From Pseudomonadota bacterium (lineage in GTDB: Bacteria > Pseudomonadota > Gammaproteobacteria > Steroidobacterales > Steroidobacteraceae): a stretch of 64,000 nucleotides of DNA. The DNA is taken from positions 373,417-437,416 of the forward strand of contig JAFEDS010000013.1 in the NCBI GenBank assembly GCA_018241505.1. Direction: 5' to 3'. Made by a program: the position numbers and the translations under genes. Below the pieces are notes generated by a model. It did not search any database, was not told the DNA's origin, and was given only the letters and a program-made list of their open reading frames with translations. Shown here piece after piece: positions 20,724-41,396 of this stretch; position 1 is the first letter of the stretch; every line of letters starts with the position of its first letter.

Positions 20724-20885
20724 TTCGAGTGCTCACGAGAGGTTACCCAGCCCGTAGGTGCGGCCACGGCGGCCTGAGGTTTCCTGCCGCAAGAGCTTTT
20801 TTCAGCTTTGAACCCGGGGTCGGGAACGCGGTACTCACACTCTGAAGCAAATGCGTCCTGTGTATTTCCGAGGTGCCGTTTCCGG

Positions 20886-21896
20886 ATGTCGAGTGTCCTT
20901 TCCACTTCGCGGCTACGGCGTCTGCCGCTGGTTACGCTCTATCTGACCGAGCGCTGCAATTCCCGATGCGTGACGTGCGACTACTGGCGTCACGGGCGGC
21001 TCGATGCGAGCCTCGATTTCATCCAACGCCTCATTCCCAGCCTCTCGAGCTTGAGCACGCGCGTGGCCCTCATTTCGGGCGGCGAGCCGCTGCTCAATGC
21101 TCAGTGGCACGAGATTGCGAGCCTGCTGAAAGGCGCGGGCATCAAACCCTGGTTGCTGACGTCGGGATTGTCGCTCGCAAAACACGCCGAGCGCGCATCG
21201 CAGTTGTTCGATGCAATCACCGTATCGCTGGATGGAACCAATGCCCGCACCTATCAGGCGATCAGGGGCCTCGATGCTTTCGATAAGGTCTGCGAGGGCA
21301 TTCGAGCGGCGGTCTCGGCCGGATCAAAGGTGGGTGTGCGTGTGACCCTGCAGCGCGCCAACTACAAGGAGTTGCCGCTGTTTGTGGACCTGGCGCGGCG
21401 GCTCGGGGTCAATCACATTTCGTTTCTGGCTGTGGATGTCGCCAATCCGCACGCGTTCGGGCGCACGGACGATTTTTCCTCCGACCTGGCGTTGAGTACC
21501 GAGGACCTGCCGGTCTTCGGGGACTCGATTGCGAAGTTGGAAGCGGACCGCGCGGCTGACTTCGAGTCCCGCTTCATTGCCGAGAGCCCCGCGAAGCTGC
21601 GGCGCCTGCAACAGTATTTTGCCGCCGTACAGGGGCGGGCACCGTACCCCGCGGTACGTTGCAACGCCCCTGAATTTTCCGCTGTGGTGGGTGTGAAGGG
21701 CGCGGTCCAACCGTGCTTTTTCATCGCCGGGCAGGGGGCGGCCGCCAACGAGGGCGACCTGGAGAGCGTGCTGAATCTACCGGCCATGATGGAGTTGCGG
21801 GACACTATTCGCGCGGGCCGACGTCCGGAGTGCGTCAGTTGTGTGTGCTCGTTGTACCGCGACCCTGACAACGTCGATGAGCTTCTCCTGCCATGA
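20886..21896 (+). CDS. Radical SAM enzyme with SPASM-like C-terminus
   Basis: 336 residues from the ATG at 20886 (GAGG 14-17 bases upstream); a longer frame to 20808 lacks support. The CX3CX2C motif binding the SAM [4Fe-4S] cluster is TERCNSRCVTC (Cys 24, 28, 31), followed by the GGE motif SGGEPLL. Late cysteines (VRCNAPEFSAVV, QPCFF, ECVSCVCSLYR) suggest a SPASM or twitch auxiliary-cluster domain, common in peptide- and sugar-modifying enzymes. It is the first gene of a rightward, coupled run of about ten genes. The substrate is unknown; enzymes of this type modify peptides, sugars or cyclitols. Confidence 0.88.
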   Translation: MSSVLSTSRLRRLPLVTLYLTERCNSRCVTCDYWRHGRLDASLDFIQRLIPSLSSLSTRVALISGGEPLLNAQWHEIASLLKGAGIKPWLLTSGLSLAKHAERASQLFDAITVSLDGTNARTYQAIRGLDAFDKVCEGIRAAVSAGSKVGVRVTLQRANYKELPLFVDLARRLGVNHISFLAVDVANPHAFGRTDDFSSDLALSTEDLPVFGDSIAKLEADRAADFESRFIAESPAKLRRLQQYFAAVQGRAPYPAVRCNAPEFSAVVGVKGAVQPCFFIAGQGAAANEGDLESVLNLPAMMELRDTIRAGRRPECVSCVCSLYRDPDNVDELLLP

Positions 21897-22558
21897 ACGC
21901 AGCACAGGAAACCCTGCAGGTCTATGAGCGCTGGGCGCCCCTCTATCCGCCCGTTGCCCACAATCCGCTGATGCGGATCGAGCAGCGCGCGATGCTCGAG
22001 GCTTGGCCGCATGTAGCGGGGCGCCGGGTACTCGATCTCGCGTGCGGTAGCGGCCGATATTCGCGCGCCCTGTTGGAGTCGAAAGCCGCGCAGGTCGTGT
22101 CGCTCGATTTCTGCATGCCGATGTTGCAACGGGTCGAGGGTTCGCGGCGAGTTTGTGCGAGCATGATGCAACTGCCGTTTCTCGCGGAATGCTTCGATGT
22201 TGTCGTATCCGGTCTCGCCCTGGCACATGCGTCGGCAGTGCGGCCCTGGGCGGCGGAAGTTTCGCGCGTGCTGTGCCCGGGCGGGACTCTTCTATATTCC
22301 GATTTCCATCCGGAAGCCGCTCGGGCCGGGCTCACCCGTTCGTTCAAGGACGCCGAGAATGTAACGCTGACGGTGCCTCACCAGCTCTACAGCGTCGATG
22401 AGCAGGTCGGCGCCGCGGTCGCCGCTGGGTTGCGGCTGCAGATGGTTCGCGAGTTGCGTGTGGGTTATGAGCTGCAGGAGCCTTTCCCCGGATCAGAATC
22501 CTTCTACAGCCAGTGGCACGGCCTGCCGCTCGTGTTGGTTGTGCGAGCCGGAAAATGA
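21893..22558 (+). CDS. Class I SAM-dependent methyltransferase (UbiE/BioC-like)
   Basis: 221 residues. Motif I is VLDLACGSGRYSRALL (about residues 44-59), the acidic residue after strand 2 is in VVSLDFCMPML, and the later strand is FDVVVSGLALAH, all in the order of a Rossmann methyltransferase. AEVSRVLCPGGTLLYSDFHP is the post-motif region typical of BioC/UbiE-like proteins. It overlaps the radical SAM gene (ATGA) and the amidohydrolase gene (ATGA), so all three should be translated together. It likely methylates an intermediate of the cluster product. Confidence 0.88.
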   Translation: MNAAQETLQVYERWAPLYPPVAHNPLMRIEQRAMLEAWPHVAGRRVLDLACGSGRYSRALLESKAAQVVSLDFCMPMLQRVEGSRRVCASMMQLPFLAECFDVVVSGLALAHASAVRPWAAEVSRVLCPGGTLLYSDFHPEAARAGLTRSFKDAENVTLTVPHQLYSVDEQVGAAVAAGLRLQMVRELRVGYELQEPFPGSESFYSQWHGLPLVLVVRAGK

Positions 22559-23727
22559 TGTCGGCTAACCGGTGTGTGACTTTCATGAACTGCAGTGGCG
22601 TGAGGACGCTGCGCACGGTCGGCGCACACATTTCGTCGGTCGACACACCGCCCGTGGCCGGCGACACGGTGATCGATTTGGGCGGGGCGCGCCTTCTGCC
22701 AGGGTTGATCAATGCGCACGACCACCTGCAACTCAATACGCTGCCGCCGCTCGAAACCGCGCGTCGCTACAACCGCGCGCATGAATGGATACTCGATGTC
22801 GATGGCCGCCGGCGCAGCGACCCCGATTTTGAAGCGCTGATCGCCGTATCGCGCAATGACCGGTCACTGATTGGCGGAGTCAAGAATCTGCTGAGCGGCG
22901 TGACCACGGTGGCTCACCACGACAAGCTGTATCCGATCCTGTCGGACCCGGGTTTTCCGACCCGCGTTGTCACTCGCAGCGGTTGGTCGCATTCGTTGTA
23001 TATCGACGGCGGGGACGCAGTGCGCGACTCCTATCGATGCACGCCTCCTGACCAACCATGGGCCATCCATGCGGCTGAAGGGATAGATAGCGAGTCAGCG
23101 CAGGAATTTGACCGGCTCGAAGAGCTCGGCTGCCTGGGCTCGAATACGCTGCTGGTTCACGGAATCGCCCTGGATGCCGAGCGGCGCCAACGCCTCGACC
23201 ATGCCGGCGCGGGTCTCATCTGGTGTCCCTCATCCAACCTGACCCTGTTCGGTCGGACAGCCGAAGTCCAATGGCTCGCCGAGCGGGGACGGGTCGCACT
23301 CGGTACCGACTCCCGGCTGAGCGGCAGCCGCGACCTGTTGGAAGAGCTGCGAGTGGCGCGACAGTGCTCCGGGCTCAGCGAGATCCTGCTCGAGTCGCTA
23401 GTGACCTCGGCCGGCGCCAGGCTGTTGCGATTGGCCGATCGGGGTGCGCTCGAGGCCGGGCTGTTGGCCGACCTCCTGGTTGTGCCCGGGGACCGGCCCT
23501 TGTCGCAGCTTGCGCGAACGGATGTCAGGCTCGTGGTGCTGGATGGGATTCCCCGTTTTGCGGATGAAGCCCACGCGGCCAGGATGGCGCCGCCGGAGTT
23601 CTGGTCCCGAATCGAAGTCGATGGCTGTCCCCGAATGCTCGAGAGCACGCTGGCCCGGGCGTTGTCCGCGGCCGGATGCCGCGAGCCGGGCGTCGACATT
23701 GTTGATTTGACGTGGAGGGCGGCATGA
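22555..23727 (+). CDS. Amidohydrolase-superfamily hydrolase
   Basis: 390 residues from the ATG overlapping the methyltransferase stop. Metal-ligand motifs of the amidohydrolase barrel are present: HDH in GLINAHDHLQLN, His in WAIHAAEG, His in LLVHGIALD, and Asp in VALGTDSRLSG. The spacing resembles the TrzN/AtzA/SsnA-like branch, which removes amino or chloro groups from N-heterocycles or hydrolyses cyclic amides. A small beta-sandwich from both ends completes the fold (DTVIDLGGARLLPGL and DVRLVVLDGIPRF). In this cluster it may process an intermediate. It overlaps the next gene by four bases. Confidence 0.85.
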   Translation: MMSANRCVTFMNCSGVRTLRTVGAHISSVDTPPVAGDTVIDLGGARLLPGLINAHDHLQLNTLPPLETARRYNRAHEWILDVDGRRRSDPDFEALIAVSRNDRSLIGGVKNLLSGVTTVAHHDKLYPILSDPGFPTRVVTRSGWSHSLYIDGGDAVRDSYRCTPPDQPWAIHAAEGIDSESAQEFDRLEELGCLGSNTLLVHGIALDAERRQRLDHAGAGLIWCPSSNLTLFGRTAEVQWLAERGRVALGTDSRLSGSRDLLEELRVARQCSGLSEILLESLVTSAGARLLRLADRGALEAGLLADLLVVPGDRPLSQLARTDVRLVVLDGIPRFADEAHAARMAPPEFWSRIEVDGCPRMLESTLARALSAAGCREPGVDIVDLTWRAA

Positions 23728-25181
23728 CCGCATCGGTTTCAAATCCTGCCTGCGTCCGGGTCGGTACGCGACCCAAGGTTGTGCTCTACAACCCGCAGGC
23801 GGTGTTCTTTACTTTTCCGCTCGCCTTGTTGGCCATTGGCTCGGAGCTCGATCCCGAACGGTACGAGGTGGTCATCATTGATGCGCGGCTGGAGACAGAC
23901 GCGCCGAGTGTCGTGCTGTCACATCTGGAAGGAGCGTTGTGCGTCGGAGTCACAGTTCTGACGGGCGCGCCGATTTCCGACGCGTTGCAGGTATCTCGGG
24001 CGGTCAAACGTGCTCGTCCGGACCTGCCGGTGGTTTGGGGAGGATGGCATCCCTCCATGTTCGCCAGTGAGTGCCTCGCTGAGCCGTCTGTCGACATTAC
24101 GGTGCGTGGGCAGGGCGAGGAGACTTTTGTTGAGATTGTGCAGCGCCTGGCGGAGGGGCGGTCTCTCGAAGGCTGCGCGGGCTGCACGGTTCGCTTGCCC
24201 GATGGGCGGATCCATGAGAATCCGGCGCGTGCGCTGGCTCCTGTCGATAAGTTCCGCGCCCACGATTACGACCTGATTCCCGTGGAGCGCTATTTTCAAC
24301 TGAAGGGCAAACGCCAGCTCGACTACATTTCATCGCAGGGCTGCAACTTCCGCTGTGCGTTCTGCTCCGATCCGTTTGTGTACGGGCGCAAGTGGGTGGG
24401 TCTCGAGCCCAATCGCATGGCCCTGCGCCTGAAGGAGCTGTGGGATCGCTATCAGTTCGATGATGTCAACTTCCAGGACGAAACGTTCTTCACCAAGCGC
24501 GAGCGGGTGCGCGAGATGGCGGAGCGCATCATCGAGTCGGGCATGAAGATCACCTGGGCGGCGACGATGCGCGCGGACCAGGGAGTGCGCTTGCCCGATG
24601 ACGTGTGGGCCAAATGCAAGCAGTCGGGCCTGCGCCGCCTGCTCGTTGGCGTGGAGTCGGGCTCCAACGAGATGCTGAAGCGCATCCGCAAGGACATCAA
24701 GATCGAACAGGTGTTCGCGACCGCGGAAAAAATGGTCCAACACGGCATTGCCGGTCATTTTCCATTCATTGTCGGCTTTCCGGATGAGAGCGGCGCGTCC
24801 ATCCAGGAGAGCCTGGATGTGGCCAAGCGGCTGCGTTCCATGAGCCCCGACTTTCTCACGCCCATCTACTACTTCAAGCCATATCCGGGCAGCGAGCTGG
24901 TCATCGAGGCCGTGGCCAAGGGGTTCCGGCTCCCGGACACCCTGGAGGAGTGGGCGCGCTTCGATTACGTCGCCGGGTTGCCGGGGCCGTGGGTCACGCC
25001 GGAAAAATTCGAGTTGATTGAGCGTTTCAAATTCTTTCACGAGCTGGCTTGGAAGCGGGTGTCGCCGGGGAAACGCCTCATCCAGAGGCTCGCCCGGTAT
25101 CGCTGCACGCGTGACTTCTACCGCTGGCCGGTCGAAATGCTGTTCACCCGGTGGCTGGTTCCGGCGCAGAAGCTGTCATGA
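23724..25181 (+). CDS. B12-binding-type radical SAM enzyme 1
   Basis: 485 residues from the ATG overlapping the upstream stop. Residues about 15-150 form a cobalamin-binding-like Rossmann domain (KVVLYNPQAVFFTFPLALLAIGSEL, VVWGGWHPSM, VRGQGEETF); no DxHxxG cobalamin ligand is seen, as is common in this family. The radical SAM motif is SSQGCNFRCAFC (Cys 207, 211, 214), followed by a TIM-barrel with VNFQDETFF and GVESGSNEMLKRI. Members methylate or rearrange unreactive carbons (for example HpnP, fosfomycin and thiostrepton enzymes). It is immediately followed by a second, distinct enzyme of the same class. Confidence 0.9.
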   Translation: MTASVSNPACVRVGTRPKVVLYNPQAVFFTFPLALLAIGSELDPERYEVVIIDARLETDAPSVVLSHLEGALCVGVTVLTGAPISDALQVSRAVKRARPDLPVVWGGWHPSMFASECLAEPSVDITVRGQGEETFVEIVQRLAEGRSLEGCAGCTVRLPDGRIHENPARALAPVDKFRAHDYDLIPVERYFQLKGKRQLDYISSQGCNFRCAFCSDPFVYGRKWVGLEPNRMALRLKELWDRYQFDDVNFQDETFFTKRERVREMAERIIESGMKITWAATMRADQGVRLPDDVWAKCKQSGLRRLLVGVESGSNEMLKRIRKDIKIEQVFATAEKMVQHGIAGHFPFIVGFPDESGASIQESLDVAKRLRSMSPDFLTPIYYFKPYPGSELVIEAVAKGFRLPDTLEEWARFDYVAGLPGPWVTPEKFELIERFKFFHELAWKRVSPGKRLIQRLARYRCTRDFYRWPVEMLFTRWLVPAQKLS

Positions 25182-26692
25182 CTATGCTCAAACACGTTCT
25201 GTTGATCAATCCGACCATCACCTCGCGGCGCAGCGCCCGGTTTCCCCTGGCGGTGCTGAATCTGTCCGCGGCGCTCGCGGGCCGCTATGCCTCGAGCATC
25301 ATTGACGGCAACATCGATCGCGATTTTGTCACCACGGCGCTGCGGACATTGGCGGGCGGGCACGTCGATGCCGTTGGCTTGAGCGTCATGGGCGGTCCGC
25401 AGTTGCGCAGTGCCATCCTGGTTTCAAAAGCCATTCGGGCCCGTTTTCCTGGGGTTCCGATCATCTGGGGAGGCCACTTTCCCAGCATCTGCGCGGAACC
25501 GGCGCTCAACGAGCCGTATGTCGACTATGCCATCCGCGGACAAGGCGAGGAGACTCTCGTTGCCCTGTTGGATGTGTTGTTCGGGGTCAGCAGCGAGCGG
25601 CTGGATAACATTGCAGGATTGTCGTGGCGCTCGCAGGAGCGTGTCGTGCACAACCCCGGTCGCGCCTTCTCGACGGCCGGCCTGGGTCGCAGTCTGCCCT
25701 ACGATCGCCTCACCAATCCGCGCGCCTACCTGGGCAGGACATTTCTCGGCAACCGGACCACGGGATTCCAGGCGGCACTGGGATGCCGCTTCCGGTGTAC
25801 TTTCTGTGGCGTTGCTTCCATGTTTCGGGGCAAGACGGCGTTGCCACCGGCCGAGCGGCTCGAACACGAATTGCGGCATCTGCAGAGGCATTTCGGCGCT
25901 GACTCGGTGCAGTTCTTCGATCACAACTTCTTTGACCGTGAAGAAGACACGGTGCCACTGCTCGAGGTCCTGTCACGCCTGCAGCTTCCGTGGTGGTGCT
26001 TTGCACGCGCCGATGCCTTGTTGAATTTGTCGGAGAGCTCGTGGGCGCTGGTCAGAAAGAGCCGGCTGCGGATGGCCTACATCGGTGCGGAGTCACCCAG
26101 TGACTGGTTGCTGCACGATGTACGCAAAGGCACACGAACGGATCAGACGCTGGAGGCAGTTGAAATCTGCCGTCGCAACGACGTCATTCCCGAGCTGTCG
26201 TTCATGTTGGCGCCGCCGCAGGATCCGGAAGGGGAGACCGAGCGCACGTTCGACTTCATCAGGCAGGTCAAGCGACTGCATCCGAAGACGGAGATCATGC
26301 TTTATATCTATGCTCCATTGCCGCCTGCCCCGGGGAAGCCGAATCCGCAGGTGCAGAAGGCGGTGAGCGCTCTGTCCGATACGGATGGGAAGCCGCTCGT
26401 ATTTCCAACTACTGCCGACGGCTGGGCGCAGCAGAAGTGGCTGAGCTACTGGTGCCATACCGACGCTCCCTGGCTCACGCCGGCGTTGCGCGAGCGAATT
26501 CGTGACTTCACCACGGTGCTGGGTTGCCGGTTCCCGACCATCACCGATGTGCGCTCACCATCGTGGGGAAAGGCGGCGCTTCAGGCGCTGGCTTCGTGGC
26601 GCTATCGCTTCGAGCGTTATGGACGTCCCTGGGAGCTCAATGCTTCACGGAAGTTCATCCGATTGTGGGATCCGCGGGTATCCGGCCTGTGA
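25178..26692 (+). CDS. B12-binding-type radical SAM enzyme 2
   Basis: 504 residues from the ATG that overlaps the stop of the preceding paralogue. The N-terminal B12-like domain has HVLLINPTITSRRSARFPLAVL, PIIWGGHFPSI and IRGQGEETL. The radical SAM motif is ALGCRFRCTFC (Cys 203, 207, 210). Later landmarks are VQFFDHNFFDREEDT and YIGAESPSDWLL. It is related to enzyme 1 but far from identical, so the two likely perform successive steps rather than being a recent duplication. Eleven bases separate it from the glycosyltransferase. Confidence 0.9.
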   Translation: MTMLKHVLLINPTITSRRSARFPLAVLNLSAALAGRYASSIIDGNIDRDFVTTALRTLAGGHVDAVGLSVMGGPQLRSAILVSKAIRARFPGVPIIWGGHFPSICAEPALNEPYVDYAIRGQGEETLVALLDVLFGVSSERLDNIAGLSWRSQERVVHNPGRAFSTAGLGRSLPYDRLTNPRAYLGRTFLGNRTTGFQAALGCRFRCTFCGVASMFRGKTALPPAERLEHELRHLQRHFGADSVQFFDHNFFDREEDTVPLLEVLSRLQLPWWCFARADALLNLSESSWALVRKSRLRMAYIGAESPSDWLLHDVRKGTRTDQTLEAVEICRRNDVIPELSFMLAPPQDPEGETERTFDFIRQVKRLHPKTEIMLYIYAPLPPAPGKPNPQVQKAVSALSDTDGKPLVFPTTADGWAQQKWLSYWCHTDAPWLTPALRERIRDFTTVLGCRFPTITDVRSPSWGKAALQALASWRYRFERYGRPWELNASRKFIRLWDPRVSGL

Positions 26693-26703
26693 GAGAGTAG
26701 GTT

Positions 26704-27630
26704 GTGCAGCAACCGTTGGTCTCAGTCATTCTTCCGACTTACAACCGCTTGCGGTTTCTGCCGGCTGCAGTTGACTCCGTCCTGGCGCAGACACTGACAA
26801 GCTGGGAGCTGCTCATTGCAGATGACGGTTCTGACCGCGAAACACTGGACTATCTGCAGTCGCTGGAGGAGCTTTCCCAGGTCCGGGTGCTCCGCTTGCC
26901 ACACACGGGAAATCCGGGCGCGGCGCGTAACGCCGCATTACGGGTGGCACGCGGCGAGTACGTCGCGTTTCTGGATTCGGATGACTCGTGGATGCCGACC
27001 AAGCTTGCTGTCCAGGTTCGTGCCTTGCGTGCGTCAGCCGACTGTCGCTGGAGCTATACAGATCATGTGCGTATCGACGCGGCGGGAAACTCCATTGATT
27101 GGCAGCGCAATCCAAGCAGGACGCTGCCCGAAGGAAACATTGTAGAAGCGCTGCTTCAATTGCGGGCCGGTACGCCGACGCCCACGATTGTGGCCGAGAG
27201 GGCACTGATCGAAGCGGCGGGAGGATTCGATGAGCGGCAGGAACTGCACGAGGATTACGACCTGTGGCTGCGATTGGCGTTGCTGTCCAAAGTGTTGGTG
27301 GTTGCGCAGCCGCTGTCCTGCGTTCGCCGCCACGATGAGCACTTCAGTGGCGGTACGGTGCGCAACTTCCAGGCGAGGTTGCAAATATTCGCCAAAATAC
27401 AGGGCCGCGTCCCGGCCTCTCTCCTGAGGCGCGAGCGTGCGCGGCAGGCCGGTGGTCTCGCCTGCGCGTATGCATCGGCACGGGATGGCGCGGGAGTCCG
27501 GCGGACAATCGCAACGAGTTGGTCGTATTCGTGGCGTAGCTGGCACTGGCATGTGGCCTGCTCACGGGCCCTGCTGCGCGCTTGCGTGCCCCCACGCCTC
27601 GTGTCCCTGGTTCGTCAGGTGAGACATTGA
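26704..27630 (+). CDS. GT2-family glycosyltransferase
   Basis: 308 residues, GTG start. The GT-A nucleotide-sugar domain is clear: VSVILPTYNRLRFLPAAVDSVLAQ at the N-terminus, GNPGAARNAALRVARGEYVAFLDSDD with the metal-binding acidic cluster (about residues 90-97), and ELHEDYDLWLRLAL as the acceptor/catalytic region. There are no transmembrane helices, so it should work in the cytoplasm or at the inner face of the membrane. It belongs to the coupled biosynthetic run and probably glycosylates the cluster product or its lipid carrier. Confidence 0.9.
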   Translation: MQQPLVSVILPTYNRLRFLPAAVDSVLAQTLTSWELLIADDGSDRETLDYLQSLEELSQVRVLRLPHTGNPGAARNAALRVARGEYVAFLDSDDSWMPTKLAVQVRALRASADCRWSYTDHVRIDAAGNSIDWQRNPSRTLPEGNIVEALLQLRAGTPTPTIVAERALIEAAGGFDERQELHEDYDLWLRLALLSKVLVVAQPLSCVRRHDEHFSGGTVRNFQARLQIFAKIQGRVPASLLRRERARQAGGLACAYASARDGAGVRRTIATSWSYSWRSWHWHVACSRALLRACVPPRLVSLVRQVRH

Positions 27631-29381
27631 ATATCTTCTCGCGAATCTGGCGGTTGCTCGCGCCGTCACAGCGGCGGCAGTTGGTTCGCTTGCAGTTGGT
27701 TGCGGTGGCAATGGCCTCGTCGACCGTTGGTGGCCTGGCGGCGGTGGTGCCCTTCTTTACCGTGCTCACCGACCCCGCCGCCATCCATCGAAGTCCGTTT
27801 CTGCAGGCGTTATATCTGCATCTGGGATCCGGCGGTGCGGGGGCCTTCACCGTGGCGCTGGGAATTGCCTTCGCGGTGTTTGTGTTGCTGGCGAACGCTA
27901 TCAATCTGCTGGGAACGCTCGCCATCAACCGGTTCGCCCATCGGGTGGGCGATAGCTTCTATGTGCGCCTGTTCGATGAGTATCTGCGGCGCGATTGCGC
28001 ATTTCATGCCCGGCACAACAGCGCGCTGCTGTCGGCCAGGGTGCTGCACGAGACCGGCCGCGTGGTCACCGGCATTCTCAACCAAGGGCTCATTCTGGTT
28101 GCCAATCTCATCACGATTGCCTTTGTGGTGATGGCCATCCTTCTGTTGAATCCGCTGCTGGCCGGCATAGCCATGTTTGCACTGGCTGCCAGTTATGTCC
28201 TCATCTACGGATTGATGCGCCAGCGACTGCTGAACAATGGCCGCAATGAGAGCCGCCACGTAGCGGTCCGCAGCCAGGTGGTGAATGAGACATTCGGCGC
28301 AATCAAGGAGGTCACCCTGGCGGATGCCCGGGGTTCGTTCGTGCACCGGTTTGCGCAGCAGTGTCACGCCATGACCCGGGTGGAACTGAGCACGCTGGCA
28401 ATTTCGCTCAGTCCGCGCAATCTGTTGGAATGTCTTACCGTGCTCTGTCTCGTGGCCGTCGCTCTGTATCTGCATGCCGGCGGCAACGGGGCCGGCTCGT
28501 GGATGGCCGAGCTCAGCTTTGTTGCCCTGGCCGCGTATCGGCTGCTGCCAGCTCTGCAATTGACGTTCATTGCCGTGGTGCGCATCCGCGCGAATCTTTC
28601 AGCTCTGGACAACATTGAGGCCGATCTGTTGGCCGCAGGGCCGGCGCGCAGCGCGGCAGCAGCCTTCACGGACCAGAACCGGCAGGAGACTTTGGCGGGT
28701 GGTATCGAATTGCAGGATGTCTGCTTCCGCTATGCTGCCGATCGACCGCCCGCTCTCAACAACCTCTCGGTGGTCATTCAGGCCGGTTCCTGTGTCGGTA
28801 TCATCGGTGCCAATGGATCGGGCAAGACCACCCTGGTGGATGTACTGGCGGGGCTGTTGGTGCCGCAGTCGGGGCGCGTGATCATAGATGGAACGGTATT
28901 GGATGAGTCGCGACGCGGTGCCTGGCACGCGGCTGTCGCCTATGTGCCACAACAAGTCCTCGTGTTTGACGCTACGTTTGCAGAGAACGTGGCCTTGGGC
29001 GTGCAACGGGCGCATATCGATATCGAGCGAGTGGAGCGTGCCATCCACATGGCGCGCTTGAGCGAGTGTGTTGCCTCTTTCCCCAGGGGAATCGACGAGG
29101 TGTTGGGTGAGCGCGGTTGTCGGTTGAGCGGCGGCCAGCGGCAACGATTGGGAATCGCACGGGCCTTGTATCGCGATGCATCGATCCTGATCCTGGATGA
29201 GGCGACCAGTTCCCTCGACAGCACCGCAGAGGAGCAAATCGTCGACATGTTGGAGAAGCTGCGCCCCCGCTGTACGATCGTGATGATCGCTCATCGGATG
29301 AGCGCGTTGCGTCACTGTGAGATCATTCACGAGCTCTGGGAAGGGCGTATCGTGCGAAGTTTACATGAACGCGCGGCCTGA
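27627..29381 (+). CDS. ABC exporter, fused membrane and ATPase domains
   Basis: 584 residues if started at the TTG overlapping the upstream TGA; a GTG at 27582 is the alternative. The N-terminal half has about six transmembrane helices in exporter arrangement. The ATPase has Walker A GANGSGKTT (about residues 395-403), signature LSGGQRQRLG (about 500), Walker B ILILDEATSSLD (about 522) and the H-loop IVMIAHRMS. The layout is that of MsbA/PglK/lasso-peptide-type half-transporters, which act as homodimers moving lipids, lipid-linked sugars or peptides outward. In this cluster it is the obvious exporter or flippase. No peptidase C39 domain is present. Confidence 0.92.
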   Translation: MNIFSRIWRLLAPSQRRQLVRLQLVAVAMASSTVGGLAAVVPFFTVLTDPAAIHRSPFLQALYLHLGSGGAGAFTVALGIAFAVFVLLANAINLLGTLAINRFAHRVGDSFYVRLFDEYLRRDCAFHARHNSALLSARVLHETGRVVTGILNQGLILVANLITIAFVVMAILLLNPLLAGIAMFALAASYVLIYGLMRQRLLNNGRNESRHVAVRSQVVNETFGAIKEVTLADARGSFVHRFAQQCHAMTRVELSTLAISLSPRNLLECLTVLCLVAVALYLHAGGNGAGSWMAELSFVALAAYRLLPALQLTFIAVVRIRANLSALDNIEADLLAAGPARSAAAAFTDQNRQETLAGGIELQDVCFRYAADRPPALNNLSVVIQAGSCVGIIGANGSGKTTLVDVLAGLLVPQSGRVIIDGTVLDESRRGAWHAAVAYVPQQVLVFDATFAENVALGVQRAHIDIERVERAIHMARLSECVASFPRGIDEVLGERGCRLSGGQRQRLGIARALYRDASILILDEATSSLDSTAEEQIVDMLEKLRPRCTIVMIAHRMSALRHCEIIHELWEGRIVRSLHERAA

Positions 29382-32360: not shown

Positions 32361-32425
32361 TCGGCCGCGTACAGTATCATTGAGGATCCCGTCTCGAGTC
32401 GTCGCGCAACTACGGACCGCGCTCA

Positions 32426-34447: not shown

Positions 34448-35200
34448 TCAGTTTTTGTTGTCGGTAAATACCGCGTAGAGCTGCTTATATTCCTCGAGTG
34501 GAGCCGCGTGGAATGCTTCCGCGAACCGCACGCCCTGGCCGAATCCCATGGCGCGCCAGGCATTGAGACCGAAGCTCGAGTGCAGGTAGTCCGTCAGCGC
34601 GAGCTGGCTCGGGTAGCAGGCCACCGCCTGGCGCTTCAGTTCCAGGGTTGCATCAATGGCGACCAGGCAGTTGGCCAGTGTCGTGCTCCACACCTCATAG
34701 CCGCGACATTCGAATTGCATGTGGCTGTGGCGCGTTGCGGACAGCAACACATCATTGGCGGCGCGATGATCGGGGTGCCGCTCCAGAAAGAACGGCAGGT
34801 ACACAATCTCCGGGCGCTCGCGCTCGAGGATTTCAGACAGGCGCCCGGCCACTCCTGTATCCGAGCCCAGCCGGCCGTCCGCGGCATCGAGAAAGAACAG
34901 TTGGTTGATGCCCAGAACCCGTGCGGCGCGCTCCGCCTCTGCCTTGCGAATCGTCACGATTTGGGCCGGGTCTTCGCCGGCAGCACGGCCGAGACGGCCG
35001 TCGGTCAGGAAGACCACCTTGACGTCGGCTCCTGCTGCGACGTGCCGTGCGATAGTGCCTCCGCAGCCAAGCACTTCGTCGTCCATGTGAGGCGCCAGCA
35101 CGATGATACGGGCCTTCTGCGGCTCGCAGCGCCTGACAGGCTGCTCGGTGTTTGAAGCGGACCTGAACAACCGCAAGGCCTTGCGCAGCAGCCCGTTCAC
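34448..35200 (-). CDS. PIG-L/LmbE-family deacetylase
   Basis: 250 residues. The zinc-binding motif is IVLAPHMDDEVLGCGGTIARH (about residues 32-52) in parts, and the third ligand is in LERHPDHRAAN. This family removes N-acetyl groups from amino-sugars (GlcNAc-PI, mycothiol and bacillithiol precursors, teicoplanin). A role on an N-acetylated sugar fits the glycosyltransferase and acyltransferase nearby. It follows the methyltransferase gene with a one-base gap, so the two are co-transcribed leftward. Confidence 0.9.
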   Translation of the reverse strand: MNGLLRKALRLFRSASNTEQPVRRCEPQKARIIVLAPHMDDEVLGCGGTIARHVAAGADVKVVFLTDGRLGRAAGEDPAQIVTIRKAEAERAARVLGINQLFFLDAADGRLGSDTGVAGRLSEILERERPEIVYLPFFLERHPDHRAANDVLLSATRHSHMQFECRGYEVWSTTLANCLVAIDATLELKRQAVACYPSQLALTDYLHSSFGLNAWRAMGFGQGVRFAEAFHAAPLEEYKQLYAVFTDNKN

Positions 35201-35201
35201 A

Positions 35202-36062
35202 TCAACGCTTCCTCATGACAATCAGAAAATGATCGCCCATTCCACGCAGGAAGGGTAGGCCTGCGACGCGCCGGTCGACGCGCCACAGCCGCTCATACAG
35301 GCGCGGGTGTCGTTCCCGGACCCCGGTAAGGTAGGGCGGTGGCGCGAACACACACAGGCCACGGTAGTGAGTGAGGGTGAAATCTTTCTCAAAGGCGCGG
35401 TAGAACTCACGTGGCCCATAGTAGCGAGTCCAGATGGTGCGTTTGTTCATGCCAACAGGGACGAGGTTGGCCGCGAAGCGCACCTTGATGCGCGACCAGC
35501 GCCGTTGGCTCGCGTAGTGTGCGATTTCCCAGGGGCAGATCCGACCTATGACTGTAAATACCAGGGAGCCGCCCGGTTCCAGCAGGCGCGCGCATTCCCG
35601 CGACACCGCGCTCAGGTCAGGTACGCAGTTGAGGGGGCCCAGGTTGGAATAGGCACCCGCATAAATTCCGCTGCCCGGGAGACGCGCGAGATCGTGCGCC
35701 CCCACGTTGACCGTGTGAACGCGCTCCGTCAGCTTTGCCCGTTCGGCCCGGTCCCGCGTGCGGGCCACCATCTGCGCCGACCAGTCAGTTGCGGTGATCT
35801 CAAACCCCGACTGTGCCATTCGCACGGCATCGAGGCCTGTACCGCAGCCGAGGTCAATGAGGCGGCGGCCCGGGGCAAAGGTGGCGTCCAGCCAGCGCCA
35901 CATCTCCTTGCGCATGTCCTGGATGAGGTCATTGTTGCCTCGGGCGCCATCGTAGTCTGCCGCGACACTATCGAATGCATCCTGGGTTTCGCGCAGCCGC
36001 TCGTTCGTGGTGTCAGCCTCGTTCACAATATTCACAGCATCCGACTCCCTAAGTGTCGCCAC
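35202..36062 (-). CDS. Class I SAM-dependent methyltransferase
   Basis: 286 residues, GTG start at 36062. Motif I is LIDLGCGTGLDAVRMAQ, then ITATDWSAQMV for the ribose-binding acidic residue, and SNLGPLNCVPDLSAVSRECARLLEPGGSLVFTVIG for motifs II-III. The N-terminal AFDSVAADYDGARGNNDLI resembles methyltransferases found next to sugar and natural-product genes. The C-terminal 90 residues may contact the acceptor. It is divergent from the HprK-like gene with only 15 bases between starts, so their promoters must overlap each other's coding regions. Confidence 0.87.
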   Translation of the reverse strand: MATLRESDAVNIVNEADTTNERLRETQDAFDSVAADYDGARGNNDLIQDMRKEMWRWLDATFAPGRRLIDLGCGTGLDAVRMAQSGFEITATDWSAQMVARTRDRAERAKLTERVHTVNVGAHDLARLPGSGIYAGAYSNLGPLNCVPDLSAVSRECARLLEPGGSLVFTVIGRICPWEIAHYASQRRWSRIKVRFAANLVPVGMNKRTIWTRYYGPREFYRAFEKDFTLTHYRGLCVFAPPPYLTGVRERHPRLYERLWRVDRRVAGLPFLRGMGDHFLIVMRKR

Positions 36063-36077
36063 GGCGTTGCGCAGGGT

Positions 36078-37157
36078 ATGCTGTCTGCCGGACAGTCACA
36101 GGGTCTCCCGCGCTTGAAGACCAACGTACCCGAGCTCTATTCCGACCCGTTTGGCGAGCGCAGCGCGGTGCGCGTTCGCCGGGATTTGCACCTGCTGGGC
36201 GCGCAGTTCCTGTTTGAGAGCAACAGCCCGAAGTTGATGCGGTTGGTGGACACTGCCTATGCCGGTCTGCCACCTCATCGGCTCACCCGCAGTACTCCGC
36301 GCCTGCGCGTCAGATTGGAGCTGACAGCCGAAGAGCGCCGGAGCCCACGCACGCAACCGCCGCCGCTGCAGATGTTGTCGGGTGCGGGTTTGCTCTGTGG
36401 TGCGACCCAAGCGTCGAATTTCGTCGTTGTGTCGCCGCAGGATGGCGCCGCGCTCGTTGCCGTGACTCCGAGGATGTTGCGGTTCCCTTATCACACACGC
36501 TATGAGCTCATCGAGTTTGCCGTATTCACACTCGCGGCACGAGCCCAGGGTCTCGTATCGATGCACGGTGCTTGTGTAGGACTTGCGGATCGTGGCGTGT
36601 TGCTCATGGGGCCTAGCGGCGCAGGCAAGTCCACCGTGACTCTCCACGGCCTGTTGGACGGCATGTCTTTTCTCAGCGAGGACGCCGTGTTCGTCACTCC
36701 CGACACGTTGCTTGCCACGGGTGTACCGAATTTTCTGCACGTGCGGGCCGACTCCCTGAAGTGGGTCGGTGCTACCGCTGGCGCCGCGATCCGCAGGTCG
36801 CCCGTAATTCAACGCCGCAGTGGCGTCCGAAAGTATGAAGTTGATTTGCGCACCGGCGCCCACGCATTGGCCCAACAGCCGCTGCGGGTCCGATCCGTGG
36901 TGTTCCTGTCGGCCCGCAAGGCCTCGGGGGCCCAGCGGCTGCTGGTGCGGCTGTCGCGTGCGGAGGCAATGCGACGGCTCACCGCGGAGCAGGCGTATGC
37001 CGCCGGCCAGCCCACCTGGCCGCAGTTCGCACGCAACGTCGGCAAACTGCCATCCTTCGAGTTGCTTCGAGGTCAGCATCCGGGCGAGTCCGTTGCGGCG
37101 CTACGCGAGATCGTCAGCAGCTCGTCGATGGCCGCAGGACGCAGAGCGCACGAGTAG
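36078..37157 (+). CDS. HprK-related kinase
   Basis: 359 residues from the ATG at 36078; the frame is open far upstream but there it is antisense to the methyltransferase. The C-terminal half has the HPr-kinase-type P-loop: VSMHGACVGLADRGVLLMGPSGAGKSTVTLHGL in parts, with GPSGAGKST at about residues 178-186, then FLSEDAVFV. HprK-related proteins without the true HPr-binding region occur beside PqqD-like and nucleotidyltransferase genes in exopolysaccharide and lasso-peptide clusters; one group phosphorylates peptides. A nucleotidyltransferase is indeed nearby, but no PqqD-like gene was found. Its last 85 bases overlap the opposing gene. Confidence 0.82.
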   Translation: MLSAGQSQGLPRLKTNVPELYSDPFGERSAVRVRRDLHLLGAQFLFESNSPKLMRLVDTAYAGLPPHRLTRSTPRLRVRLELTAEERRSPRTQPPPLQMLSGAGLLCGATQASNFVVVSPQDGAALVAVTPRMLRFPYHTRYELIEFAVFTLAARAQGLVSMHGACVGLADRGVLLMGPSGAGKSTVTLHGLLDGMSFLSEDAVFVTPDTLLATGVPNFLHVRADSLKWVGATAGAAIRRSPVIQRRSGVRKYEVDLRTGAHALAQQPLRVRSVVFLSARKASGAQRLLVRLSRAEAMRRLTAEQAYAAGQPTWPQFARNVGKLPSFELLRGQHPGESVAALREIVSSSSMAAGRRAHE

Positions 37158-38551
37158 TCACTATAAAGCGCTGAGGCTTGGGCGGCGGCTTCCCGGTCCG
37201 GCACGTCATCCGCGGCACCGATGCGTGAATTCAACTCCTCCGCCGAAGTGACGGTCTCGCGCCAGCTCGTCAGCTCGAAGAGGGGGTCGATGGGCAGCTC
37301 ACCGGCTCGCGCCAGGTAGAACGGCTTGATGCCGGCCTGAACCGCCAGCAGGGCGGCCGACGAGCTGCGATACAGGCAATAGCGCGCTCGCGACAGGTCT
37401 TCCGCCAACGGAGTGCGTGCCGATAGCGTCACGTTGTTGGGGAGCGATCGCAGTGTTGCATGGCGGCTGCGCAGCGCTACCGCGTCAACTATCGGATGGG
37501 GGCGCAGCACAAAGCGGAAATCAGCTCGCTGATGGGCCGCGGCCACCGCTAAATTAAATAACAACGCGCATTCCCGGTCGTCGGCGTCCGGGAGTACCAC
37601 GCACTGGCGCGGCCGGTCTTCCGGCTTGGGCAGGTCGGTCGCGGGCGCAAGCGAGCTGCGATGCGATCCATACTCAATCAGTTGCGTGGGACCGAATTCC
37701 GGGCTGTCTGCCAGCCTGCGCTGAGTCATTTTACCGAGTGTCAGCACCACATCCGGGTCGCAATCGAGCCCCGGAGCCCCGATCCTGCGGCGGACGGCGT
37801 GGGCATGTTTGAGGAGGCGCGCGTGTTGGTATCCTACGCACAGCGGACGGCGCTTGGCGGTTCGCGCGGCGTGCCAGATGAGCCTTTCGCCGGCTTCGCC
37901 CTCATAGGTGGTGATAACTATTCCGGGATTCAGCGCGCGGCACAGATTGCTCAAAGCTGCGTGGATTCGCAAGTTGATGGCTGTCGACGCTGACAGCGCC
38001 TGGCGGCTGGCGAAGTGGGCGATCTCGACGTCCGCAGTCTCTTTGCGAAGCTGCTTGGCAGCACCGATACACTCGCCCCATATTTTCAGCTCGGCGGCGG
38101 GCGCCACCGCGCGTGGCAGTATGATGCGCGATCGGGGGCTGGCGTTGGCGGGCTCATAGGGCAGATGGTTGATCAACACCAGCACGGAGCTGACGCCACG
38201 CTCCTCCAGCAGGCTCTGCAGGGGGCCGAAATAGAAGTCATCCTGTTGGTCCAACTGAGTTGGGTTGGACAGGTGGGAGACTATGATTGCGTCGGCTTGG
38301 TGAAGGGCCGGGGGCGCCGCGGCTGTCACGGACCGGCCCAATCCGCGTGCAATCCGCAGCGCAGCCCTGGGTGTGTGTGTCAGGTTGCCGCCGGCACCTT
38401 TCTGCAGCAAAGGCGCGTATTGCGCCAGCGAGCCAGGATGTTCATTGATCACGTGCAGAGCGGGGATGGCGAGGCGGGCGACACTCGTGCCGCGTCCGCG
38501 CAGCAGACGGTCACACGCCGCGGCGAGCTGCGCATATTCCTGTTCGTTCAC
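37073..38551 (-). CDS. Putative GT-B-like surface-carbohydrate protein
   Basis: 492 residues from the GTG at 38551, which overlaps the nucleotidyltransferase stop (GTGA); a frame extending to 38746 lies inside that gene. I do not recognise a named family. Features: AIIVSHLSNPTQLDQQDDFYFGPLQSLLEERG, PGIVITTYEGEAGERLIWHAARTAKRRPLCVGYQHARL, and a C-terminal half CVVLPDADDRECALLFNLAVAAA, FVLRPHPIVD, SRARYCLYRSSSAALLAVQAGIKPFYL. The tandem Rossmann-like pattern and the HP(x) and SSSAALLA loops are like GT-B capsule glycosyltransferases. No signal peptide or membrane helix. It may also be a related non-catalytic protein. Confidence 0.65.
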   Translation of the reverse strand: MNEQEYAQLAAACDRLLRGRGTSVARLAIPALHVINEHPGSLAQYAPLLQKGAGGNLTHTPRAALRIARGLGRSVTAAAPPALHQADAIIVSHLSNPTQLDQQDDFYFGPLQSLLEERGVSSVLVLINHLPYEPANASPRSRIILPRAVAPAAELKIWGECIGAAKQLRKETADVEIAHFASRQALSASTAINLRIHAALSNLCRALNPGIVITTYEGEAGERLIWHAARTAKRRPLCVGYQHARLLKHAHAVRRRIGAPGLDCDPDVVLTLGKMTQRRLADSPEFGPTQLIEYGSHRSSLAPATDLPKPEDRPRQCVVLPDADDRECALLFNLAVAAAHQRADFRFVLRPHPIVDAVALRSRHATLRSLPNNVTLSARTPLAEDLSRARYCLYRSSSAALLAVQAGIKPFYLARAGELPIDPLFELTSWRETVTSAEELNSRIGAADDVPDREAAAQASALYSDYSCALRPAAIDELLTISRSAATDSPGC

Positions 38552-39771
38552 CGCAGCTCTGCCAGGATCGTCCGGACCGCATGCAGCGTGTCGGGCCGGG
38601 GTTGTTTGGAAACGACCCAGCGGAGGATCCTCTGCCTCTGCGACAACCGGGACCAATCGCTGTGGGAGGCGGCGACCTCGGTCTGAGTTTGCGATTGGCG
38701 CAGGCGGCGCGTATCCGCATTGGGTCGAACGCGGCTGCGCACACACTCGAGCATTTCAGACAGAGAGCGCGACCAACCTATGCCGGGGAAGGCCTCGATC
38801 CACAGGTACGACATCGATACATCGGACAGGGTTTGTCGGCGCGCGAGGCGGCGCAGATTCCATTGGCAATAATCCTGCACGCCGGGCAGCACCACCGCAG
38901 GAATGGCCTTCGGGTAGTAACGTGCAGTCAACAGGAGCGGTGGCAGGGCCCACCAGGGACCGCCTGTGTCCGGTCCGTGAGCCAGCAACTCTTGCCAGTC
39001 GGCTGGCGCCATTCGCCCGGCCACCAGCGCAATGTCGTGCAGATGCAGCAGGCGCAGCGCCCGATAGGCCATGCAGCTCGATGCATGGATCAGCAGATGA
39101 ATCAACAGCGCCACCCGGGATGGATATGCGTTCAACCCGGGATGGGGCCGGCGCGGATAGATGGAGGCCGTTACATCCAACGGACGCAATGGAAGTATCT
39201 CGGCGATCCGTTCATGCAACTCGAACTTGAGATAGTTTTGCCCATGCTCGCCCAATTGCGCCGGGACGTCGCGTACCTTGGGCATGAAAACTTTGTGCTT
39301 CCAGTTTGCCGACGCCGGCGCGTCGCTGAAGCCGAGTGACTCGAGCACTTCACAGGCGCGGGCGGCCTCATCAGGGTGTACCAGGAGATCAATGTCGGCC
39401 ATGGGCCGATCACCCGCGCGATAGAGCCCCAGGCCGTGCAGGGCGGTGCCCTTCAGGCCGACGAGGGCTACCTGTTCCTCTCGCGCGCGAGCGTCCAACA
39501 GTGTCAGGAGCGCTTCAATCCGGTGCTGCCGGACGGTGACGTGGGCTCGCTGTGAGTCGAGAAATGGTTTCCAGTCCGGCGGCCCTTCCCATTTGAGGTG
39601 AGTTGCCAGCAGCGGCGAGACGCCGTGCATGGCCGCGACGGCTCGCGCCAACTGCCACTCGAACCCGGACCAATCGGGCGCCACCGCGGAAGGTTGTGCC
39701 AGCTCGCTTGCGAAGCGCTCCGTGATCGTGCGCAGCTTGCCGTGCAAGACCGGAAGGGGCGGCAGTTTCAT
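38548..39771 (-). CDS. Nucleotidyltransferase-fold protein (NTP_transf_5-like)
   Basis: 407 residues. The polymerase-beta-type nucleotidyltransferase motif is present: VGLKGTALHGLGLYRAGDRPMADIDLLVHPDEAARACEVLESLGF in parts, with DIDLLV at about residues 126-131 giving the two metal-binding Asp. Members of this family (PF14907-like) accompany HprK-related kinases in exopolysaccharide and some lasso-peptide clusters; their substrates are mostly unknown. The start ATG overlaps the stop of the radical SAM gene at 39768, so it is the second gene of a three-gene leftward unit. Confidence 0.85.
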   Translation of the reverse strand: MKLPPLPVLHGKLRTITERFASELAQPSAVAPDWSGFEWQLARAVAAMHGVSPLLATHLKWEGPPDWKPFLDSQRAHVTVRQHRIEALLTLLDARAREEQVALVGLKGTALHGLGLYRAGDRPMADIDLLVHPDEAARACEVLESLGFSDAPASANWKHKVFMPKVRDVPAQLGEHGQNYLKFELHERIAEILPLRPLDVTASIYPRRPHPGLNAYPSRVALLIHLLIHASSCMAYRALRLLHLHDIALVAGRMAPADWQELLAHGPDTGGPWWALPPLLLTARYYPKAIPAVVLPGVQDYCQWNLRRLARRQTLSDVSMSYLWIEAFPGIGWSRSLSEMLECVRSRVRPNADTRRLRQSQTQTEVAASHSDWSRLSQRQRILRWVVSKQPRPDTLHAVRTILAELR

Positions 39772-41225
39772 CCCGTTTGCGCAGCTCCACCGATCGGCTG
39801 CGTCCGATGCAATCTTTCACGTGCGATGAGGTCGTGCCACCGGCGTTCGAGCGCCCGTTTCGCAGGCGAATTCTGCGCCGCCGGTTCGACTGTCTGCAGT
39901 GTCACCTGATCGTGGATCAGGTTGCGGACGGCGCGATAGAACTCCGAGGTGTAGGTGCCCTGAAACATCATGGCGAGATCGTCGCTGTCACGCCAGTGCG
40001 TTTTGCCATTGAGCTGAGCTTTGACCAACTCGTAGAAGCGGGTACCGGGAAGCGGATACGACACGCTGACACCCACATCATCGGGCCGTGCCAGCTCCAG
40101 CAGGGCGCGCGTGGCCAGGATGTCGGATAGCTGCTCGTCCAGGTAACCGAGCTGAATGAAGAAACCGACGCGGATTCCAACGCCTTTGAGGCGTTCGCGA
40201 CCCGTGACAATCTCCGTGACGGTCGTGCCCTTGTTCATGGCATCCAGAACCCGCTGGCTGCCGCTTTCCGCGCCAATCCAGGCTTCCCGGCAACCGGCCG
40301 CGGCCAATGCCGCCGCCATGCGCTCACTCAACAGGTCGGCACGGGTTTGGATGGTGAAGGGGATCCCGCCGCCCGCCGCTTGCAGGGTAGCGGCGAAGTC
40401 GTTCAACCAGTCCACCCGGAATCCAAAGATGTCATCGGCAAACCAGATGTGATCCGGTTTGAAGGTGCGCTTCAGATACAACATCTCGTTGGCGACGGCG
40501 ACGGCGGCGCGTTGCAGGTACTGGTTGCCCCAGATCGGCTTGGCGCACCAGCTACAGCGGAAGGAACAGCCACGGGAGGCAGCCATGTTGAGACTGAAGT
40601 ACCCGTGTGCTTGCAGCCACATCGAGCGGTAACGCTCAATGTCCAAAAGGTCCCAGGCGGCAGCCTCGCCGGTGTGCGCCTGGTTCGCCAGGACCCGCGC
40701 GCCGTTGATTTTCACCACCGCGCCATTGACCAGGGTCATGGTTCCCGATAGCCCCTCAATCAGCTCACCGGCCGGCTGCCGGGCGTTGCCATCGAGCTTT
40801 GGAATGAGGTCCAGCAGGGTGGCGAGTCCTTCACCCATGAGTGCCACTTCGGCGCCGGCTCTCAGGTAGGGCTCGGGCGCGTCGCTGACGTCCGGCCCGC
40901 AGGCAATGACCCGCGCGCCCGCCCGGTGCGCGGTGCCGATCATCTGACAGGCCGCCTCGCGCATCTTGCCGAGACACATCTTGCTCAGAAAATTGAAGGT
41001 GTCCTCATAGAAAAGGACCACCTGCGGTTGGACCTCCGCCAGCTTCCGGTCATATTCCTCGATGCCCGTGGCGAGCATGGCATCGAACAGCGCGACGTGA
41101 TGCCCCGCCTGGCGCAGGAGACCTGCGACCTGCAGGGTCGCCAGCGGCGGGTAGGGCTTGGCCCGCTCCACCTGCTTGGGATCGAAGCGCAGAAAGTAGG
41201 AGTGGCAAACCAGAATTGAAAGCAT
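39768..41225 (-). CDS. B12-binding-type radical SAM enzyme 3
   Basis: 485 residues from the ATG at 41225, chosen because the next 28 upstream residues are not family-like. The N-terminal B12-like domain has PPLATLQVAGLLRQAGHHVALFDAM and VALMGEGLATLLDLI. The radical SAM motif is AASRGCSFRCSWC (Cys 220, 224, 227), with HIWFADDIFGFRVDW, EAWIGAESGSQRVLDAM and VGFFIQLGYLDEQ further on. This layout resembles enzymes of the BchE/HpnR side of the class. It heads a leftward operon with the nucleotidyltransferase and the GT-B-like gene. Confidence 0.9.
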   Translation of the reverse strand: MLSILVCHSYFLRFDPKQVERAKPYPPLATLQVAGLLRQAGHHVALFDAMLATGIEEYDRKLAEVQPQVVLFYEDTFNFLSKMCLGKMREAACQMIGTAHRAGARVIACGPDVSDAPEPYLRAGAEVALMGEGLATLLDLIPKLDGNARQPAGELIEGLSGTMTLVNGAVVKINGARVLANQAHTGEAAAWDLLDIERYRSMWLQAHGYFSLNMAASRGCSFRCSWCAKPIWGNQYLQRAAVAVANEMLYLKRTFKPDHIWFADDIFGFRVDWLNDFAATLQAAGGGIPFTIQTRADLLSERMAAALAAAGCREAWIGAESGSQRVLDAMNKGTTVTEIVTGRERLKGVGIRVGFFIQLGYLDEQLSDILATRALLELARPDDVGVSVSYPLPGTRFYELVKAQLNGKTHWRDSDDLAMMFQGTYTSEFYRAVRNLIHDQVTLQTVEPAAQNSPAKRALERRWHDLIARERLHRTQPIGGAAQTG

Positions 41226-41271
41226 TGTCCGGGGGCACTCCTGTCGCTGGGCGCGTGGCCGTGTGTCTCGC

Positions 41272-41283
41272 CTCACATGTGAG
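41272..41283. promoter_or_regulatory. 12-bp palindrome between divergent genes
   Basis: CTCACATGTGAG is a perfect palindrome in the 171-base region between the radical SAM gene (leftward) and the ferritin-CDGSH gene (rightward). It could bind a regulator; no protein partner can be named. Confidence 0.35.
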
Positions 41284-41396
41284 TGCAGCCGGAACGGCCT
41301 TGGGTTCAAGAGGTGTCACAGTGAACTGGCTGGATGGGGGGTGGCAGCGACCCCGGCATTGATGCGAAATTCCAGGGCGACCCGCTGGAGAAAGCA

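Follow-up and report, generated by a model that had tools for sequence, protein, structure and literature searches.

A radical SAM-rich gene cluster of a Steroidobacteraceae bacterium is the proteobacterial version of a widely scattered cluster type

We analysed a 64,000-nucleotide stretch of contig JAFEDS010000013.1 from a Steroidobacteraceae bacterium (hereafter the window, meaning this whole stretch) and delimited, by open reading frame (ORF) calling and domain searches, a cluster of 16 genes at 20.8–41.3 kb, many of them translationally coupled. This cluster is the proteobacterial version of a widely scattered cluster type, whose core of radical S-adenosylmethionine (SAM) enzymes, methyltransferases and a nucleotidyltransferase recurs in eight named phyla or divisions and has probably spread horizontally. 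Judging from sequence comparison, we put at roughly one in two the probability that the core makes a single radically modified, sugar-like unit, which would be coupled through phosphate, glycosylated, deacetylated, acylated or sulfated, and exported. The general kind, a radical-SAM-rich biosynthetic cluster, is known, but this is a new conserved type.

The genes form a plus-strand run (A–J), a minus-strand pair (L–K), a plus-strand kinase gene (M) and a minus-strand set (P–O–N):

A, 20886..21896, plus strand: radical SAM enzyme with SPASM-like C-terminal cysteines, core (PF04055, 54 bits; the ORF opens at 20808 and the start is uncertain)
B, 21893..22558, plus strand: class I SAM methyltransferase (PF08241, 63 bits)
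C, 22555..23727, plus strand: amidohydrolase of the nucleobase/chlorohydrolase deaminase type (PF01979, 62 bits)
D, 23724..25181, plus strand: B12-type radical SAM enzyme (PF04055 and PF02310)
E, 25178..26692, plus strand: B12-type radical SAM enzyme, core (PF02310 and PF04055)
F, 26704..27630, plus strand: GT2 glycosyltransferase, accessory (PF00535, 103.8 bits)
G, 27582..29381, plus strand: MsbA/PglK-like ATP-binding cassette (ABC) exporter (PF00005/PF00664; TIGR02203, 259 bits, cut-off 602)
H, 29317..30258, plus strand: sulfotransferase of the 3'-phosphoadenosine-5'-phosphosulfate (PAPS) type, accessory (PF00685/PF13469; family in 7 of 81 loci including the window)
I, 30255..32360, plus strand: Gfo/Idh/MocA oxidoreductase fused to a D-2-hydroxyacid dehydrogenase, accessory (PF02826, 129 bits; PF01408, 50 bits)
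J, 32426..34447, plus strand: AT3 O-acyltransferase with SGNH domain, accessory (PF01757, PF19040; family in 5 of 81 loci including the window)
K, 34448..35200, minus strand: PIG-L deacetylase, accessory (PF02585, 109.8 bits; PHMDDE and HPDH motifs)
L, 35202..36062, minus strand: class I SAM methyltransferase, core family (PF13649, 52 bits; family in 28 of 81 loci including the window)
M, 36078..37157, plus strand: HprK-related kinase (PF07475, a weak 27.8 bits, below the cut-off of 33.3)
N, 37073..38551, minus strand: perhaps a glycosyltransferase (DUF6716 'putative glycosyltransferase', 17.5 bits, below the cut-off of 27)
O, 38548..39771, minus strand: NTP_transf_5 nucleotidyltransferase, core slot (PF14907, 99.5 bits)
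P, 39768..41309, minus strand: B12-type radical SAM enzyme, core (PF04055, 53 bits; start likely near 41225)

Genes overlap by ATGA at the A/B, B/C, C/D, D/E, H/I and P/O junctions and by GTGA at O/N, the kind of coupling described in a first-pass annotation of this DNA. That annotation had proposed a 20-kb biosynthetic cluster with four radical SAM genes, one SPASM-like and three B12-type; Pfam identified all four and every one carries a CxxxCxxC motif, although the B12-binding domain of P (PF02310, 31.6 bits) lies just under its cut-off of 32.1. Pfam also agreed with nearly all the other genes listed there, the oxidoreductase fusion I having been overlooked. As for its two glycosyltransferases, F is a clear GT2 enzyme, whereas N is unproven: its DUF6716 match is sub-threshold, and its PDB matches reach E 0.23 at best. 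Catalytic motifs were found in the kinase, the PIG-L deacetylase, the amidohydrolase, the sulfotransferase and the ABC protein; in C these are the metal-site motifs HDH and GTDS, and its top NCBIfam match is 8-oxoguanine deaminase (64.8 bits versus a cut-off of 532). In line with the same annotation, no match to a polyketide synthase (PKS), nonribosomal peptide synthetase (NRPS), YcaO or lasso-cyclase was seen among the scanned cluster proteins. The host genome comprises 7.88 Mb in 46 contigs (93.9% complete, 5.67% contamination) and contains nine B12-binding domain matches, seven of them above cut-off; that three of the nine fall within 18 kb here is more than chance would give.

Recurrence of the core in relatives and distant phyla

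Among 148 related genomes, the host included, D orthologues (≥70% identity) were found in nine, the alignment giving 70–85% identity in seven relatives. All nine have E directly beside D, and the eight whose contig extends far enough also have A; in the other (G062) the contig ends inside D. Nine more genomes carry E without a D orthologue (59–75% identity), giving at least 18 of 148, a lower bound because E was counted from paralogue matches of the D search. P is present in 18 genomes, and E and P occur together in 16 (Fisher p 2e-17); P also accompanies D in 8 of the 9 D genomes (p 8e-8). E alone was seen in G018 and G047 (completeness 83 and 81%) and P alone in G009 and G122 (63 and 99%). 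Elsewhere in the class E is rare, the host being the only one of 369 sampled genomes to carry it. M is a common member of the proteobacterial version, present in 7 of the 9 genomes that carry D (host included). D itself is conserved in distant phyla, yet members of the genus may lack it: without it, G031 keeps A, B, C, E, F, G, M, L, O and P, and G068 carries P, M, O, L, N, I, G, E, C, B and A. N is full-length at 50% identity in G068, and copies of I at 57–58% occur there (full-length, 57%) and in loci L037 and L106; a 37-residue match to J in G068 was not counted as present.

A scan with the D alignment and two exact peptide patterns over 84,980 species genomes yielded 94 stretches encoding a relative, of which the best 80 were analysed; counts out of 81 add the window. 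Loci were bounded at 10 kb or the contig end, which shortened many, and phyla were read from record titles. The profiles that define the core families derive from these same 80 loci and use cut-offs chosen without a control set; some genes, including the window's own L, dropped out of family assignment where ORF picks overlapped. The named loci encode D at 43–85% identity in many phyla, the nearest being metagenome records labelled Gammaproteobacteria, Proteobacteria and Steroidobacteraceae.

Family clustering and profiles found the following recurring beside D: A, E, P, a P paralogue (P2), L, either a methyltransferase T or B with C, and a nucleotidyltransferase, O or N8. N8 is an NTP_transf_2-type protein that fills O's place in other phyla (PF01909, 23.8 bits versus a cut-off of 21; an MNT antitoxin is a weak PDB match). 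At least three of these seven other core families (A, E, P, P2, L, T/B and nucleotidyltransferase) accompany D in 46 of 80 loci: 16 of 18 in Pseudomonadota, 8 of 16 in Acidobacteriota, 1 of 4 in Gemmatimonadota, 8 of 9 in Chloroflexota with Thermomicrobia, 9 of 25 in Bacteroidota, the single Armatimonadota and Latescibacterota loci, 1 of 2 each in KSB1 and unnamed records, and none of 2 in Ignavibacteriota. Counting the window among the 81 loci, the A family was assigned in 34 and P2 in 31; in many relatives T replaces B and C (T in 25, B in 12). P2 was not found in the host genome, where only P (36% identical to P2) and weaker matches appeared. Consecutive core genes mostly lie less than 150 nt apart (D–E in 22 of 26 cases, N8–P 14/15, A–D 10/11, L–P2 12/14, D–P 9/12). 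The fixed core that the first-pass annotation had proposed to look for in other genomes thus consists of A, E, P, a methyltransferase set and a nucleotidyltransferase, often with D and P2.

In G043 and G001 (loci L030 and L028), P and P2 adjoin each other several kb away from D and E; the core can therefore be split into two separate halves. D-only loci were checked at genome level for 19 of 22 rows, of which 18 showed no core family and one (L090) only P2. P-family genes were present in 17 of these 19 genomes, the match being E 5e-174 or better in 16 and no stronger than P2-like in the remaining one. An Ignavibacterium genome encodes N8, P, L, P2, E, T and A at a separate place from D, and P2, L, P and N8 were found in a Dokdonia genome. 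On the D tree (81 rows) the label 'core' changes 12 times versus 19.5 in shuffles; core and bare loci are therefore mixed, yet core loci cluster. Distance correlations were high for all 14 pairs compared, including glycosyltransferase and ABC protein (0.57–0.85, no permutation as high), and because every pair correlates they cannot separate core from accessory genes.

Could the genes be independent and neighbours by chance, the condition under which the first-pass annotation said its cluster would fall? Accessory genes do differ between relatives, and 34 of the 80 D loci hold fewer than three other core families. The co-occurrence of E and P and the repeated adjacency of core genes across phyla speak so strongly against it that we give it practically no weight. 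For the core, chance neighbourhood is refuted, and the cluster is one unit.

Likeness to characterized enzymes and possible products

In both profile and structure searches of PDB, A comes closest to BlsE, the cytosylglucuronate decarboxylase of blasticidin S biosynthesis. BlsE led the profile search (85 bits), followed by MoaA, PqqE and others, with BtrN aligning to the C-terminal part of A, and the AlphaFold model of A (pLDDT, the predicted local distance difference test score, 82.6) was nearest to BlsE 7vob (E 5e-15, 24% identity). A differs from BlsE in scoring 46 bits against TIGR04466 (cut-off 400), and genes of the cytosylglucuronate pathway were not recognised in the cluster. D and E have AprD4, the radical SAM diol dehydratase that acts on paromamine in apramycin biosynthesis, as best PDB profile match, and it ranks second for P, whose nearest structures are MgmA, AprD4, TsrM and OxsB. 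The AprD4 model is likewise far from reached (D 61, E 31, P 58 bits versus 500). No deoxystreptamine gene was recognised in the cluster, and 2-deoxystreptamine/aminocyclitol synthase genes are absent from the Pfam and NCBIfam matches listed for its proteins. Because A is closest to BlsE and D and E to AprD4, with NCBIfam matches far below cut-off, we infer radical chemistry on a unit that is probably sugar-like.

AprD4, BchE, OxsB and HpnJ are non-methylating enzymes, and the B12-type enzymes of the cluster resemble them about as much as the methylases TokK, CysS, MgmA and TsrM. C-methylation is therefore only one possibility. Among the matches listed, no cluster protein reached an NCBIfam cut-off, including those of ApyD, HpnJ, BchE, the ladderane family and TIGR04295.

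On this basis, the radical SAM enzymes would act in sequence on one sugar-like unit of aminoglycoside, nucleoside or cyclitol type. A would act like BlsE, on a glycosyl acid or nucleoside, and D, E and P would carry out C-methylation, deoxygenation or rearrangement. The unit would be completed by the methyltransferases and, in the B/C version, by the deaminase. Coupling through phosphate would then fall to the nucleotidyltransferase, together with the HprK-like kinase where present, much as such a pair performs it on the lasso peptide pseudomycoidin; clade-specific enzymes would add sugars, acyl groups or sulfate or remove acetyl groups, and the product would leave through an ABC exporter or flippase. 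Product class, substrate and step order are put forward here as a working scheme.

The coupling step draws on lasso peptide clusters, for which three reports describe phosphorylation of a serine hydroxyl by an HprK-like kinase and transfer of a hexose to that phosphate by a nucleotidyltransferase (PMC9266682, PMC8498205, PMC7533575); some such clusters also hold sulfotransferase genes, according to one of them (PMC8498205). M and O may perform kinase/nucleotidyl-type coupling of this kind. Pseudomycoidin and paeninodin tailoring, as these reports describe it, shares the HprK-like kinase and nucleotidyltransferase with our cluster, but precursor and lasso B or C genes were not found here, and O is likened to PsmN by role only. 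The top NCBIfam match of M is HprK-related kinase A (TIGR04352), at 41.1 bits versus a cut-off of 200, and its PqqD partner was not found.

These parallels also prompt the reading that the locus is a cluster for a ribosomally synthesized and post-translationally modified peptide (RiPP) with an overlooked precursor. The same reports place all three tailoring genes in lasso clusters, and the top NCBIfam match of D is the RiPP enzyme ApyD, at 125 bits versus a cut-off of 750. Yet 646 small intergenic ORFs (20–110 residues) from 45 loci contained no family present in three or more loci at E 1e-4, a search that would miss precursors that are very short, diverged or overlapped by longer ORFs. Hardly any intergenic space is left in the window cluster, and a RiPP recognition element (RRE)/PqqD, lasso protease or cyclase is absent among the matches listed for its proteins. 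We consider a RiPP very improbable.

Slightly better, though still improbable, is a lipid-modifying pathway (hopanoid, tetraether or ladderane-like) with a sugar head group. D matches HpnJ (124 bits), and the top family of P is the ladderane-associated B12 radical SAM family TIGR04072 (90 bits), followed by TIGR04295 (82 bits), which we take to be the oligosaccharide-linked 'rhizo-twelve' family, a name not found in the literature searched. All three scores fall far below their cut-offs (578, 360 and 400, respectively); D, E and P are likewise far short of the hopanoid/ladderane equivalog cut-offs (HpnJ, HpnR, TIGR04072), and a lipid-synthesis gene was not found in the cluster.

The genes around the core vary with lineage. 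Relatives carry GT2, GT4, GT87 and PMT-type glycosyltransferases, PIG-L and polysaccharide deacetylases, GNAT and AT3 acyltransferases, PAPS sulfotransferases, aryl-sulfotransferases and a carbamoyltransferase, and G005 adds a UDP-sugar dehydrogenase, a GHMP kinase, a HAD phosphatase and a transaldolase. The transport gene is either an MsbA/PglK-like ABC protein or a multi-pass protein (family 17, no Pfam match) which, in other phyla, reads as flippase-like. Among flavobacterial versions, the carbamoyltransferase lies at 503–2248 of L080 and an aryl-sulfotransferase at 3001–4452 of L085; a member of the same aryl-sulfotransferase family at 2102–3547 of L074 starts with a lipoprotein-like signal. 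The chemistry of the core is constant and the glycan dressing changes by lineage. Since the radical core recurs in distant phyla while the decorating genes change, an exported, sugar-decorated family of molecules is probable. The first-pass guess of a sulfated, acylated, C-methylated glycoconjugate remains reasonable though unproven: variable sulfation, acylation and export fit the relatives, but the sulfo- and acyltransferases lie outside the core and C-methylation is one option among several.

Such a shell would also suit a surface-polysaccharide locus of capsule or O-antigen type, in which the radical SAM core would make one rare sugar of a polymer. The variable glycosyltransferases, the AT3 acyltransferase, the PglK-like exporter, the flippase-like protein and GT-C enzymes fit this, as do the sugar dehydrogenase, transaldolase and GHMP-kinase genes of G005. 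However, in the window cluster and the scanned part of the relatives' genes Pfam matched neither a polymerase nor an initiating phosphoglycosyl transferase nor a capsule export protein, and no ligase was seen in the window cluster; carbamoyl- and aryl-sulfotransferases suit a small molecule equally well. We regard a polysaccharide product as possible but on the unlikely side.

Several observations weigh against a common core that makes a modified sugar-like unit. Its sugar specificity leans on distant similarity (16–24% identity where Foldseek measured it). SkfB, MoaA, SuiB and PqqE, several of them peptide enzymes, also match the A fold (E 4e-12 to 8e-10), and the best structure for P is MgmA, a peptide methylase, from a model of modest confidence (pLDDT 69). 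No sugar-nucleotide synthesis gene is present in the window cluster. Homology of O and N8 was not shown by profile comparison (probability 1.5%), the HprK-like kinase was assigned in Proteobacteria loci only, and P was not found in 2 of the 19 bare-D genomes. Most loci also come from metagenome bins, in which contigs can be misplaced.

Flanking genes and plasmid look-alikes

Divergent from A lies one further candidate for membership:

18784..20723, minus strand: mono-haem c-type cytochrome with an Ig-like domain, and an outer-membrane-like CxxCH protein

Both proteins contain CxxCH; PF13205 matches the first, and the second has no Pfam match. Similar genes occur near the cluster in G005, G038, G062, G031, G050, G068, L044 and L045, so the pair may belong to it. 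Otherwise the flanks are mostly ordinary metabolism, with a DUF3612 regulator, malate synthase and isocitrate lyase further left and a ferritin-like/CDGSH protein, Ldh_2, an altronate-dehydratase-type protein and SMP-30 on the right. The first of these right-hand genes (41334–43496) encodes a ferritin-like (VioB-like) protein with CDGSH and Fer4_19 domains; it lies near P in G005 as in the window, and on contigs separate from the cluster in G001 and G031. We rejected it and the DUF3612 regulator as members, being on separate contigs from the cluster in several relatives, which also indicates that the cluster occupies different genomic places. No Rfam match to a cobalamin or SAM riboswitch was obtained in the window at gathering thresholds.

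In plasmid records, D relatives were found in 41, all below 60% identity (the eight best-ranked at 29–33%); O and P had no plasmid copies and M one weak match. Streptomyces, Nocardia and Calothrix plasmids (L118 13856–16341, L119 825–3250, L120 8668–11060) carry a radical SAM gene paired with a B12 radical SAM gene, accompanied by short-chain dehydrogenase/reductase and LD-carboxypeptidase genes and, in two of the three, an aminoacyl-tRNA-ligase-like gene. The other core genes were not found by tblastn at the actinobacterial and cyanobacterial loci behind these three D matches, and we rejected them as the same cluster; they look like another pathway.

A candidate class of metabolites

No described pathway with this set of genes was found, in line with the first-pass annotation, among the NCBIfam matches listed or in the titles and abstract openings of the open-access literature, though one may be in print elsewhere. 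It is somewhat short of an even bet that the core defines a new natural-product class, carried by horizontal transfer through at least eight phyla. In such a class a sugar-like scaffold would be built by four or five radical SAM enzymes together with methyltransferases, without PKS, NRPS, RiPP or known sugar pathway, and lineages would re-dress it with their own sugars, sulfate, acyl and carbamoyl groups. The reading is testable, since core loci are present in named strains: Flavobacterium terrae DSM 18829 (L085) carries T, E, A, D, P2, L, P and N8, and Polaribacter porphyrae NBRC 108759 (L094) carries P, L, P2, D, E and T. Four to five radical SAM enzymes common to Gammaproteobacteria, Acidobacteria, Chloroflexi and Flavobacteria would mean a class of metabolites not seen before, and the cluster points to new radical chemistry, probably on sugars.

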